Source: Candidatus Poribacteria bacterium (GTDB lineage Bacteria > Poribacteria > WGA-4E > WGA-3G). Taken from it: 48,162 bases of DNA. The notes below the pieces were generated by a model, which did not search any database, was not told where the DNA came from, and saw only the letters and a program-made list of their open reading frames with translations. The stretch spans positions 1-48,162 of the forward strand of contig VXPE01000021.1 of NCBI GenBank assembly GCA_009839745.1, read 5' to 3'. The position numbers and the translations under genes were made by a program. Each line of letters opens with the position of its first letter. Within the stretch, counting starts at the first letter, position 1. Shown one piece after another: positions 3,028-7,340 of this stretch.

Positions 3028-3807
3028 TTATATGTGTCCGGGGAGCACTCGACTCCGCCGTCTGCGCAAACCTTTCCGCAAGGTCTGCTTCAGTTCTTCA
3101 ATCTTCCCATGTTTCCATGAATCCCGGAGTGCCTTCGGATTCGCAATAAGCGTAGATTCGGATTCGCGCAACAGTTCGATCACCTTAAGTTCATTCGCCT
3201 TGAGCGTGCGCCGCGATGTCGTCGAATTGTCAATGATCGCATCCGCCTCTTCCGGAGGTTTCCCCTCAGTGGCACCAAACGACAGCATGAGTGTGATAGG
3301 TGACTGGTAACTGCCAAGCGTGTTTAGTCGCTTCCATGGTGTTAGAATCGTAGGAGCGACCCTATTTTCCGTCTTTTCAAGGATATATTTCTCGGCGATG
3401 TTCAAATATTCGGTAGATATTCGGATGTCTCTATCTGAGAAATTCACCAGCTCGTCGAACGTGTTGATATCGTCTCGTTCTTCACGTACCGCGAGGATAA
3501 TATCAATATGCCCGTATTCCAGAGGCAAGATTTCCTCAACATCTGCGTCAGTTTCTTCGACCCAATCTTGACCGGTAATTCCTACATCGTAGAAGTCATC
3601 CATGCCGACATAAACCGGTATCTCTTGGGGACGTGAAATCTTGATTTGAAATGCGTTGTCGTTACGGAAGGTCGCGCGATAAGACCTATCCGTTTCGGTA
3701 TAACCGTTGAGTTCATAACCGGCACGCTGAAACATTTCAAGCGTATCCCCCTGTAGACTCCCTTTCGGTAAAAGTAGTTTCAGCGTCCGTTGTGATTCCG
3801 TTTTCAT
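3028..3807 (-). CDS. hisG: ATP phosphoribosyltransferase, short form (HisG)
   Basis: Catalyses the first step of histidine synthesis, joining ATP and PRPP. Family features are LPKGSL (13-18), DVGITGQDW (74-82) and the PRPP-binding stretch at 189-207 (DAIIDNSTTSRRTLKANEL). At 259 residues it lacks the full C-terminal ACT-like regulatory domain of long HisG and ends in a basic tail. Short HisG needs HisZ, which is encoded immediately upstream, 38 bases away. The ATG follows AAGGAG at 8 bases. Confidence 0.93.
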   Translation of the reverse strand: MKTESQRTLKLLLPKGSLQGDTLEMFQRAGYELNGYTETDRSYRATFRNDNAFQIKISRPQEIPVYVGMDDFYDVGITGQDWVEETDADVEEILPLEYGHIDIILAVREERDDINTFDELVNFSDRDIRISTEYLNIAEKYILEKTENRVAPTILTPWKRLNTLGSYQSPITLMLSFGATEGKPPEEADAIIDNSTTSRRTLKANELKVIELLRESESTLIANPKALRDSWKHGKIEELKQTLRKGLRRRRSRVLPGHI

Positions 3808-3845: not shown

Positions 3846-5282
3846 TTATAGAAGATCTGCGACAGTAACCATCTGTGTATCGCCGGTTTTGATATGAATC
3901 CTGCGGATCGACGCATCCGGGACCAGGCGGAGCAGATAATCGTAGTTCGCTTGACTGGCGTAATCTTGTTGTGCCTGCAAATTGCGTTCCATCAAGTCTA
4001 CTTCAACGTTCTTACCTGATCCCCGAAGTATTTCAGCAAGTCGTTGTGCTTCAGCAATACCTTCGGGTGTTTCCGCTGCGATGAAGTAGTCTTTTCTCCC
4101 GTTAACAGTTGTCTTATTTGTGTCATTAAAGGCTTCCACAAGCACGTCAAATTGGAAAGCAAATCCAGCACCAGGTATTGACGGCCCACCGAAGGAAGCG
4201 ATCAAATTGTCGTATCTCCCACCACCACAAAGCGATAGACGTTTCTCAGGCAATTCGATTTGAAAAACCGTGCCGGTATAGAAATCGAAACCACGCGTGA
4301 TACCCAAATTGATTTCAAAATCTGTAATACCGTAGTTTTCCAGAGAGTCACAGAGGGTAAGTAGTTCTTGGCGCGCGGGTTGCGCGGTATCCCCGAGACA
4401 CTTCTCCCACACTATCATCACAGTGTTCTTATCACCACAAACTTTTGAAACCTCTATACAACACCGCGCCATTTCTTCAGCAACATTGAAATAACGGTGC
4501 CATCTCGCCTTATAAGTCTCCTCAGCGATAGTCGGTAGTTTTTCTGCAAAAGTGGGGACGGTGCTTTCGGTTAATTCCTGAATCCAGTCAGTCTCAATTT
4601 TGCCATCGCCTTGGTAATCAACTCCTTGCAGACGCCGCAGCATATTGAGCGTATCTCGTAGTGTTTCGAGATCCCAAAGTTCACTGTCATTACGGAGACT
4701 TACAAGATGGTCGATGTCCCAAATCATTTCTGCTTGGTCTTTTGGATCAAGCCCGCCTTGTTTGAAAATCTCACGGAAAACACCTGTATTGCCAATTTTT
4801 AACTGTGTATGTGAGATGTTGAGTTTCTCAAGGACTCGAATCGGCATCGTAATAATTTCAGCATCTGCGTGGGCGGAAGCCGGTCCAATGAGTTCAACAC
4901 CTGCCTGTCGGAATTCCCGCTTTACTTCAGCACCATCAGTAATCGGTTCCTGTCGGGCACACTGCCCAATATAATAGAGTTTATACGGATAGGGAAGGTG
5001 TTGTAGTTCGCCATTGGCAATGAGTCTGCAGACAGGGGCAGTCAACTCAGGTCTCAGGGCATAATCCACCCGATCCGAACCCACGAACGTGAACATCTTG
5101 TGTCGGATCTCTTCACCAGATTGCGCCGATAATAGAGCAAAGGATTCAAACAAGGGGGTCTGAACTTGTGCATATCCATAAGTTTCAAAGGTTTCACGGA
5201 CAATATTTTCAACAAAATTTCGCTGAACCATCTGCTCAGGTAGAAAATCGTTCGTTCCAGCGGGTTTCTCAAACTTTTCCAT
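3846..5282 (-). CDS. hisZ: HisZ-type regulatory subunit of ATP phosphoribosyltransferase (HisRS paralog)
   Basis: A 478-residue histidyl-tRNA synthetase-like protein next to short-form hisG, so it is called HisZ. The motif 2 region (about 97-133) carries the HisZ-like REFRQAGVELIG instead of the canonical arginine-rich synthetase version. It is unusual in keeping RGFDFYTG (330-337), GGGRYDNL (353-360) and a C-terminal domain of about 80 residues that resembles the anticodon-binding domain, which typical HisZ lacks. A second functional HisRS is possible, but a full hisS lies two genes downstream. It starts at ATG 5282 behind AAGGA with an 11-base spacer, and is the first gene of the attenuated his operon. 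Confidence 0.85.
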   Translation of the reverse strand: MEKFEKPAGTNDFLPEQMVQRNFVENIVRETFETYGYAQVQTPLFESFALLSAQSGEEIRHKMFTFVGSDRVDYALRPELTAPVCRLIANGELQHLPYPYKLYYIGQCARQEPITDGAEVKREFRQAGVELIGPASAHADAEIITMPIRVLEKLNISHTQLKIGNTGVFREIFKQGGLDPKDQAEMIWDIDHLVSLRNDSELWDLETLRDTLNMLRRLQGVDYQGDGKIETDWIQELTESTVPTFAEKLPTIAEETYKARWHRYFNVAEEMARCCIEVSKVCGDKNTVMIVWEKCLGDTAQPARQELLTLCDSLENYGITDFEINLGITRGFDFYTGTVFQIELPEKRLSLCGGGRYDNLIASFGGPSIPGAGFAFQFDVLVEAFNDTNKTTVNGRKDYFIAAETPEGIAEAQRLAEILRGSGKNVEVDLMERNLQAQQDYASQANYDYLLRLVPDASIRRIHIKTGDTQMVTVADLL

Positions 5283-5315
5283 ATTTTAATTTTTCCTTAA
5301 TATGTCAAAAAAAAA

Positions 5316-5389
5316 CCCAGTAAACGGTTTGCTCTTTTTCTCACGGGCACCGACAACGCGGTGCGGAGGAGAGCGGCTTGTTTACCAGG
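5316..5389 (-). terminator. Attenuator terminator of the his leader
   Basis: The outer stem, read on the minus strand, pairs CCTGGTAAAC (5389-5380) with GTTTACTGGG (5325-5316) and includes two G-U pairs. It encloses two further helices and is followed directly by nine T (5315-5307). It sits between the leader peptide and hisZ, so it can only act on the operon's own transcript. Confidence 0.8.
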
Positions 5390-5453
5390 GTCCAGACAAG
5401 TTAGACTTGCTTCGTATCAAAGATAGTTATTCATATTCCCTCATCCGCTCAAC

Positions 5454-5507
5454 TTAGAAGTGGACCGAATGATGGTGATGAATGTTAAATGTATTGATGT
5501 TACACAT
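5454..5507 (-). CDS. Histidine leader peptide (HisL-like, 17 aa)
   Basis: The short frame reads MCNINTFNIHHHHSVHF and stops at TAA 5456-5454. Five of 17 residues are His, four of them consecutive (codons 5480-5469). It lies 63 bases after the predicted transcription start and 172 bases before hisZ, ahead of a T9 terminator. This is the arrangement of enterobacterial hisL, but no sequence relation is claimed. The ribosome binding site is weak (AAGCGA nine bases before the ATG). It is a regulatory peptide, with no expected function as a protein. Confidence 0.75.
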   Translation of the reverse strand: MCNINTFNIHHHHSVHF

Positions 5508-5552
5508 TTTTTAGTATCGCTTGCAAGTTGGAATTTGCCATTAATAAAGTCG

Positions 5553-5581
5553 TTGATTTTAATTCAATTTAATGATATTAT
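5553..5581 (+). promoter_or_regulatory. Promoter of the membrane glycosyltransferase gene
   Basis: TTGATT (5553-5558), 17 bases, TATTAT (5576-5581). Its -10 box occupies the same bases as the -10 box of the divergent his promoter, so the two polymerases could not bind together. Confidence 0.55.
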
Positions 5582-5605
5582 ACCTCATTGAAGAATGAAT
5601 GTCAA
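5577..5605 (-). promoter_or_regulatory. Consensus promoter of the his operon
   Basis: Read on the minus strand, a perfect TTGACA (5605-5600), 17 bases, and a perfect TATAAT (5582-5577). Transcription would start near 5570. The -35 box lies inside the first codons of the longest frame of the divergent membrane-protein gene, which argues for the later start of that gene. Confidence 0.8.
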
Positions 5606-7340
5606 ATTTTTTTACAGACCACCGAACAACGCAATGCAAATTAAACCTATTTACATCATCTCTATCCTCGGTGTCCTGCTATCGATATTCCTATGCGGTA
5701 TCTATTTTCAGTTCTCCTACTTTGAGCCAGACACCGTCTCGTATCTATTCCAAGCAAAGCTGTTCGCCGAGGGTAAGCTCTCAGTACCATCCCCCCCGGA
5801 ACACGGATTCTCCTCTTCTCCGCATATCAATGTGCTAAACGGGAAATGGTATTCAAAATACCCATTCGGAAACGCCTTGATGCTGATGTTCGGCGTATTT
5901 ATCAACGCGCCGTGGCTGATTCCCGCACTTGCAACAGGGGGCGCGTTGCTGCTGCTCTACCTATTTGTGAAAGAGATATATGGAGACATCCATCCGGGAA
6001 TCGCACTGATTGCCGCAGGATTCGCGCTTATTTCGCCAGCAACGCTTGGGATGGGTTCGACGTGGTTTAGTGAACCGGTAAGTCGTTTCTACCTTTCACT
6101 TTATCTCCTTACACTCCTCAGGACGCTGAATTGCAAAGACGATGCCTCTCTGCTCGCACGGATTGGCTACCCGCTTCTCTCAGGGTTTGCGTTGGGATAT
6201 GCGTTTAATACACGTCCACTCTCGGCGGTCGTCTTTGGTGTTGTCGGTGCGGGGTTAACCCTTTACCATCTGTTCACCCAATGGTTCAAAGTATCTGATC
6301 ATCGCAAGTCCCTCGAAGGTTTATTAACACTTGACTATCTGTTCACCCAATGGAAACATCAACACGAAGCAGCGCAGGCGTTGCTTCCTACACTGAAACG
6401 CTTAGGGTTCTTCTTTATTCCATTCGTTGTGATGTTGGGTGTGTGTATGTCATGGAACGCACATTTTACGGAAGATCCGTTCATGTTCACGCATACGGTC
6501 GCGCAGCCTTACGACAAAATCGGTTTCGGGCTTCGCATGGAAGGATACGAACCCAATCTTGAAGAGGGGTTTATTTTTACACCCGCATGGGCACTCGAAC
6601 GGACCTGGCGACACATCCTCCCAGGCATCAGTTTCAACGCCCTCGGTTGGGGAAGTTATCACCATAATTTATTGAAGGAGATAGAACTATCAGTGACGTG
6701 GTTCATCGCCTTTGTGCCGTTAATCCTGCCGTGGTGTCTCGTCCTTCTGCCGTTCTTCCACGGCTCGCGCAACAGATACGATGTGTTTTGCATCGCCCTA
6801 CTCGTGGGCAATTTATTGCTTTATGCCTTCTTCTACTTTGAGGGTTCGACGTGGGGATTCACGCCTGTGAATGCGCGTTATTATACCGAGTCAACATTTC
6901 TTGGGTTCATCCCGTTAGCAGCGCGTGGTATATGTATCCTCTATGAACGGTTCAAACCGTTCCAAAGACGCGGGCTTGCAATTGGGGTCGGGATATGTTT
7001 TCTGTTGCTCAGTGTCAACATCGTGTGGAGTTATGTCCGCATCGGAGAGGTGTATCAGAATTGGGACCCTGTCTATCAAAAATTGCCGCCGATGGTAGCG
7101 GAGCAGAACATTCATAACGCTGTTATTTTTGTACCCCAGCGCCGCGATGCACCGATTGGAGATTATCCCTTTCAGTCTCTGGAAGAGGCGGATATTGTCT
7201 ATTTTAAACTCGGTCCCTTACCTCGATGGAAATTGACAAACAGTGATTGGCAGAATGTCTACGCCCAGTATTTCACGGGTCGGAACGCCTATCTGTATGA
7301 CCGGAGCGAGAATAGCCTTACACAGCTGAAACAGGAGTAA
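5595..7340 (+). CDS. Polytopic GT-C/PMT-like glycosyltransferase
   Basis: A 581-residue integral membrane protein with about ten hydrophobic segments and a soluble C-terminal part. After the first membrane span comes FEPDTVSYLFQAKLFAEG, where an acidic residue in the first extracytoplasmic loop resembles the catalytic loop of the dolichyl-phosphate-mannose transferase (GT39/ArnT) fold. It would move a sugar from a lipid carrier to an outside acceptor; donor and acceptor are unknown. ATG 5595 or ATG 5634 (MQIKPIYIIS) could be the start. The second leaves a normal leader after the promoter. Residues around 225-255 contain a short duplicated stretch (HLFTQW/YLFTQW). Confidence 0.75.
   Translation: MNVKFFYRPPNNAMQIKPIYIISILGVLLSIFLCGIYFQFSYFEPDTVSYLFQAKLFAEGKLSVPSPPEHGFSSSPHINVLNGKWYSKYPFGNALMLMFGVFINAPWLIPALATGGALLLLYLFVKEIYGDIHPGIALIAAGFALISPATLGMGSTWFSEPVSRFYLSLYLLTLLRTLNCKDDASLLARIGYPLLSGFALGYAFNTRPLSAVVFGVVGAGLTLYHLFTQWFKVSDHRKSLEGLLTLDYLFTQWKHQHEAAQALLPTLKRLGFFFIPFVVMLGVCMSWNAHFTEDPFMFTHTVAQPYDKIGFGLRMEGYEPNLEEGFIFTPAWALERTWRHILPGISFNALGWGSYHHNLLKEIELSVTWFIAFVPLILPWCLVLLPFFHGSRNRYDVFCIALLVGNLLLYAFFYFEGSTWGFTPVNARYYTESTFLGFIPLAARGICILYERFKPFQRRGLAIGVGICFLLLSVNIVWSYVRIGEVYQNWDPVYQKLPPMVAEQNIHNAVIFVPQRRDAPIGDYPFQSLEEADIVYFKLGPLPRWKLTNSDWQNVYAQYFTGRNAYLYDRSENSLTQLKQE

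Follow-up and report, generated by a model that had tools for sequence, protein, structure and literature searches.

The histidine operon and its leader region

The analysed window is a stretch of 48,162 nucleotides from a Candidatus Poribacteria bacterium (contig VXPE01000021.1), on whose minus strand the genes hisZ, hisG and hisS follow, in this order, 3' of a short leader and are separated by intergenic gaps of 38 and 42 nt. The first gene, hisZ (3846-5282), encodes a HisRS-like regulatory subunit of ATP-phosphoribosyltransferase, which matches PF13393 without matching an anticodon-binding domain; because its product scores below both relevant NCBIfam cut-offs, those of the hisS and of the hisZ model, its name rests on context. 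The second, hisG (3028-3807), is of the short form without HisG_C, and matches TIGR00070 and, among Pfam models, PF01634 only; no match to PF08029 (HisG_C) was found anywhere in the genome of the window. The third, hisS (1657-2985), encodes a complete histidyl-tRNA synthetase including the anticodon-binding domain, with a TIGR00442 score above the cut-off and matches to PF13393 and HGTP_anticodon.

The leader elements lie upstream of hisZ and are read from the minus strand as well. The promoter (5577-5605) had been described as perfect, and indeed all 12 positions of TTGACA (5605-5600) and TATAAT (5582-5577), which are separated by a spacer of 17 nt, agree with the consensus; in relatives whose contig reaches that far, the hexamers are kept and the spacer has diverged. 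The predicted frame of 17 codons, MCNINTFNIHHHHSVHF, was found at 5454-5507, with its ATG at 5507 and a TAA ending at 5454. It contains the four consecutive histidine codons CAT CAC CAT CAT (CATCACCATCAT, 5469-5480), which form region 1 and the proposed stall site. No clear ribosome-binding site was found at the leader ATG. GAGCGG (5445-5450), here called region 2, is the putative 5' arm of an antiterminator and begins six nucleotides after the T of the TAA stop; its complement CCGCTC (region 3, 5371-5376), the putative 3' arm, is located in the terminator region, so that both partners of the pairing originally proposed are present.

The terminator stem (3:4, 5316-5393) is formed by the 5' arm GGACCCTGGTAAAC (5393-5380) and the 3' arm GTTTACTGGG(TT), of which GTTTACTGGG covers 5325-5316, and contains an inner hairpin. 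It is followed by a run of nine T (5307-5315), represented by at least six T in nearly all relatives. The terminator and the nine T expected before hisZ are thus in place, but the stem consists of 12 pairs with bulges and not of the 10 pairs first reported. A simple terminator scan misses it, because the stem encloses a large inner hairpin.

An additional element, absent from the original prediction, is a protector hairpin (1:2, 5427-5483), seen in the minimum free energy fold, in which the region of the histidine codons pairs with GCGGATGA..GG..ATGAAT; the histidine codons themselves are thereby engaged with GCGGATGAGGG...ATGAAT. A small hairpin, GCAAG/CTTGT (5396-5410), lies between regions 2 and 3, and 99.5% of its alignment cells are paired. 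A small hairpin similar to it (GCAAR...AACTTG) is also present before the leader, at 5538-5523, so that the region has two of this kind, the other being the one at 5410-5396.

On the opposite strand, the first ATG of a divergent frame of 581 aa (5595-7340, plus strand) shares bases with the his promoter, and translation more likely starts at a later ATG; no Pfam match was found for this frame.

Conservation of the leader in homologous loci

Seventy-one loci were reduced to 47 distinct hisZ upstream regions, of which 44 entered the alignment; L021 and L052, where a contig end cuts the region, and L061, which reaches the downstream half only, were left out. The comparison of homologous hisZ leaders, suggested in advance as a check, revealed that tandem histidine codons, terminator and covarying stems are all retained in this set. 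Three or four histidine codons in a row are present in all 44 distinct leaders, always followed, in the same order, by G[AG]GCGGAT, by CCGCTC (CCACTC in L065, which scores poorly) and by a stem with a T run.

In 41 of the 44 leaders the distance from the leader stop to GRGCGG is exactly 6 nt. In two of the others (L054 and L059) one base has been lost and the stop of the new frame falls 2 nt before GRGCGG; in the third (L005), which lies near a contig end, the canonical stop is lost and the frame continues beyond the arm. Codon differences were counted between related pairs among the 32 leaders most similar to that of the window, so that the events are not independent: at codons 7-9, 81% of the single-base differences are synonymous in frame, against 0% and 3% when either of the alternative frames is read, and the F-N-I codons preceding the histidine run differ almost solely at the third position. 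This pattern of differences indicates that three codons of the leader are under reading-frame selection.

The motif FNIHHHHSVHF is conserved within the genus, as would be expected if the histidine-rich peptide were itself a functional product, for instance in metal binding or acting in trans, and the terminator were constitutive. The N-terminal half of the peptide drifts, however, and the tandem histidines are its most constant feature across genera. Moreover, a fixed spacing separates the stop from the RNA arm able to pair with the loop of the terminator, which is a signature of action in cis; a function of the peptide as such is therefore extremely unlikely to account for the leader.

The presence of the terminator also bears on the level at which control would be exerted. 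Some leader-peptide attenuators have the ribosome-binding site as their target (PMC9413887), and the leader peptide could in principle switch access to the start site of hisZ instead of termination of transcription. This arrangement is very improbable here, since the stem with a T run directly after it is kept in the 44 leaders, and the distance from the terminator to hisZ varies among relatives between 22 and 539 nt, measured from the T run, so that conserved occlusion of the start site by an arm is not feasible.

Competing RNA stems

The three pairings 1:2, 2:3 and 3:4 were found to be mutually exclusive, with 2:3 recognized by complementarity and not by covariation. For the 1:2 stem, 31 double-changed cells were counted against 13.9 in shuffled alignments, and none of 500 shuffles reached a value as high. 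In slid controls far fewer cells are paired, one slide (-2) giving similar covariation counts; the outer helix of the stem is kept in part of the set only (71% of cells). On this evidence the 1:2 stem, in which the histidine codons pair with GCGGAT..., is predicted to sequester the antiterminator arm.

The pairing between GRGCGG and CCGCTC (2:3) is complementary in 263 of 264 cells, and the sequence is nearly invariant; because of this invariance no compensatory change is seen. As the shared GCGG is also paired in 1:2, the constancy of GRGCGG could be explained by that stem. In the 3:4 terminator stem 97.9% of cells are paired, and two of its pairs show double changes; the stem is also supported by alifold analysis. 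Within CCGCTC, the CCG has no partner in the terminator fold, yet is almost invariant, which leaves room for pairing with region 2 as a reason for its constancy.

Modelled ribosome positions

The effect of a ribosome on the leader was modelled under the assumption that its footprint extends 12 nt downstream of the first nucleotide of the codon in the A site. For transcripts ending at CCGCUC, the mean probability of 2:3 pairing over the 44 leaders rises from 0.02 on ribosome-free RNA to 0.67, 0.84 and 0.94 when histidine codon 1, 2 or 3, respectively, is in the A site; for the sequence of the window alone, the corresponding values with the ribosome on codons 1, 2 and 3 are 0.03, 0.85 and 0.99. 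A ribosome at the stop covers region 2, and the probability of 3:4 pairing is then 0.99. Folding in the two states, proposed as a check, thus reproduces the expected switch between a stalled ribosome and one at the stop codon. These modelled positions, along with the spacing of the stop, support the idea that a ribosome at the leader stop would cover GAGCGG and a stalled one would free it; together with the near-complete complementarity of the arms, they also favour GAGCGG/CCGCTC as the antiterminator.

On the full transcript, with the ribosome on histidine codon 1, 2 or 3, the mean probability of 3:4 pairing at equilibrium is 0.93, 0.91 and 0.76. Since most leaders favour 3:4 at equilibrium, antitermination would have to be kinetic, taking place during transcription, as in other attenuators.

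Proposed mechanism

The most probable reading, to which a probability of about 0.93 is assigned, is that the leader is a ribosome-mediated (leader-peptide) transcription attenuator sensing charged tRNA-His and controlling hisZ-hisG, together with hisS in nearly every relative. At the level of sequence, the reading is carried by the parts, their conservation, the selection on the reading frame, the covariation of 1:2 and 3:4 and the geometry; from these we infer the stalling of the ribosome, the kinetics of 2:3, the termination and the response to histidine. In a leader without a ribosome, region 1, with the histidine codons, would pair with region 2 (GCGGAT...), and the 3:4 terminator would form. 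Under an ample supply of charged tRNA-His, the ribosome would get to the stop codon with its footprint over GRGCGG; with this arm covered, 2:3 could not form and 3:4 would halt the polymerase some 25 nt upstream of hisZ. A shortage of His-tRNA would cause the ribosome to stall on the histidine codons and cover region 1, and the GRGCGG thus freed would pair with CCGCTC as region 3 emerges. As CCGCTC is contained within the terminator loop, 2:3 would cross the 3:4 stem and delay its formation, and the polymerase would continue into hisZ-hisG-hisS.

Other regulatory sites in the genome

In Firmicutes, T-boxes are known regulators of his and hisS genes (PMC2965389, PMC9413887), and the genome of the window does contain one T-box; a T-box riboswitch for tRNA-His could accordingly be imagined to control the operon, the short frame being incidental. 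The T-box model RF00230 gave no match in the window at the gathering score and none in 5250-5640 up to E = 10, while the same model detects the T-box before ilvB at 105.5 bits; in addition, a T-box has no need of the reading-frame selection and stop-codon spacing observed in the leader. Control of the his operon by a T-box is thus vanishingly unlikely, and attenuation by the leader peptide remains the preferred reading.

The ilvB T-box (L147 1030-1325, corresponding to G000:C70:27066-27361, plus strand) is the only one found in the genome and, together with the his leader peptide, implies that two different sensors of tRNA charging coexist. No leader-peptide attenuator was seen upstream of trpE in the same genome.

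Thirty of the 32 four-histidine codon runs of the genome were examined, and that of the leader alone lies in a short frame and was shown to precede complementary arms and a terminator, the other runs being judged by frame length and T-runs, and not by folding. A second copy of the attenuator, for example before hisD, was sought and rejected: the covariance model detects a single copy, and hisD is located away from the his operon, directly after murA.

Distribution and downstream genes

The covariance model, built from 33 leaders, was matched in 55 of 58 genomes of the family, once per genome except for G024, which has two matches and a contamination of 6%. Of the three genomes missed, two lack any hisZ match and one has hisZ cut at the contig start; the leader of G058 was added by pattern search. 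The leader precedes hisZ wherever the contig permits the check. No match to the covariance model was obtained in 14 order-mates or in 26 more distant genomes. One pattern match in another family of the order (G067) is regarded as due to chance, because reversed-pattern controls also match there, three times. HisG_C is present in all 14 order-mates and in none of 59 family genomes.

Downstream of hisG, hisS is found in 39 of 40 loci. In the exception (L038, genome G006) the attenuator stays with hisZ-hisG, and hisS lies elsewhere (L143, G006:C188), where it follows an unrelated gene and is preceded by neither tandem histidine codons nor a terminator. The original prediction had included hisS in the regulated set, with synthesis and charging responding together: the inclusion proved to be general but not obligatory, hisS having moved in one genome, and a common response of the two may follow from the arrangement of the genes.

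Two further observations concern individual loci. In L069 and L004 (G034) the hisS match spans 350 of 442 residues, and the gene is possibly truncated or frame-shifted. The spacer between the T run and hisZ has apparently grown by repeat-like insertions in some relatives (e.g. L023, L024), and in some of them a small hairpin is found at the hisZ start.

Relation to known systems

The enterobacterial leader hisL (RF00514) likewise has tandem histidine codons in a short leader, competing 1:2, 2:3 and 3:4 stems, a terminator and his genes downstream (PMC9413887). The Poribacteria leader differs from it in having three or four histidine codons in a row, in its target hisZ-hisG-hisS and in the location of hisD elsewhere; the Rfam model His_leader RF00514 had no match in the window at the gathering score, nor in 5250-5640 up to E = 10. 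A T-box (RF00230) also senses tRNA charging and ends in a terminator, whereas the Poribacteria his leader would sense charging by translation.

Counterparts are also found among the Firmicutes. In bacilli, histidine leader peptides have been described before hisZ and, separately, before a hisS paralogue (PMC2965389), and a hisZ leader with histidine codons is also known in Clostridium difficile (PMC4833913), along with other Firmicutes leaders (PMC9413887). The leaders of bacilli and Clostridium difficile thus share the histidine-codon run before hisZ, and one hisS paralogue is controlled in the same way; compared by description, bacilli use separate leaders for hisZ and the hisS paralogue, whereas in Poribacteria one leader stands before hisZ-hisG-hisS.

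The original prediction knew of no described example in this kind of lineage. For Poribacteria this still stands, in that no paper on attenuation was found in the open-licence literature, but in bacilli leader peptides are already known to control hisZ and, separately, a hisS paralogue (PMC2965389), so that novelty is confined to the lineage and to the arrangement of the targets in a single operon. The leader, whose target set is HisZ, HisG and HisS, accordingly adds a new lineage to an established mechanistic class.

Discussion

With this leader, classical attenuation by histidine leader peptides is extended to a lineage that is uncultured and largely associated with sponges, and the alignment of 44 leaders is of sufficient quality to build a new RNA family model. 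It also offers a compact test case, in that more HisRS acts on charged tRNA-His, the very signal that the switch would read, and one genome combines a leader peptide for histidine with a T-box for ilvB.

A broader scenario, held to be slightly more probable than its negation, is that a single family in one order of Poribacteria swapped a self-contained long HisG for HisZ and a short HisG, and may thereby have gained a translation-sensing attenuator, which would set histidine synthesis and tRNA charging together, the T-box being kept for branched-chain synthesis. The change of HisG form and the attenuator coincide in the genomes compared; the scenario further supposes that the two are linked and that hisS does respond.
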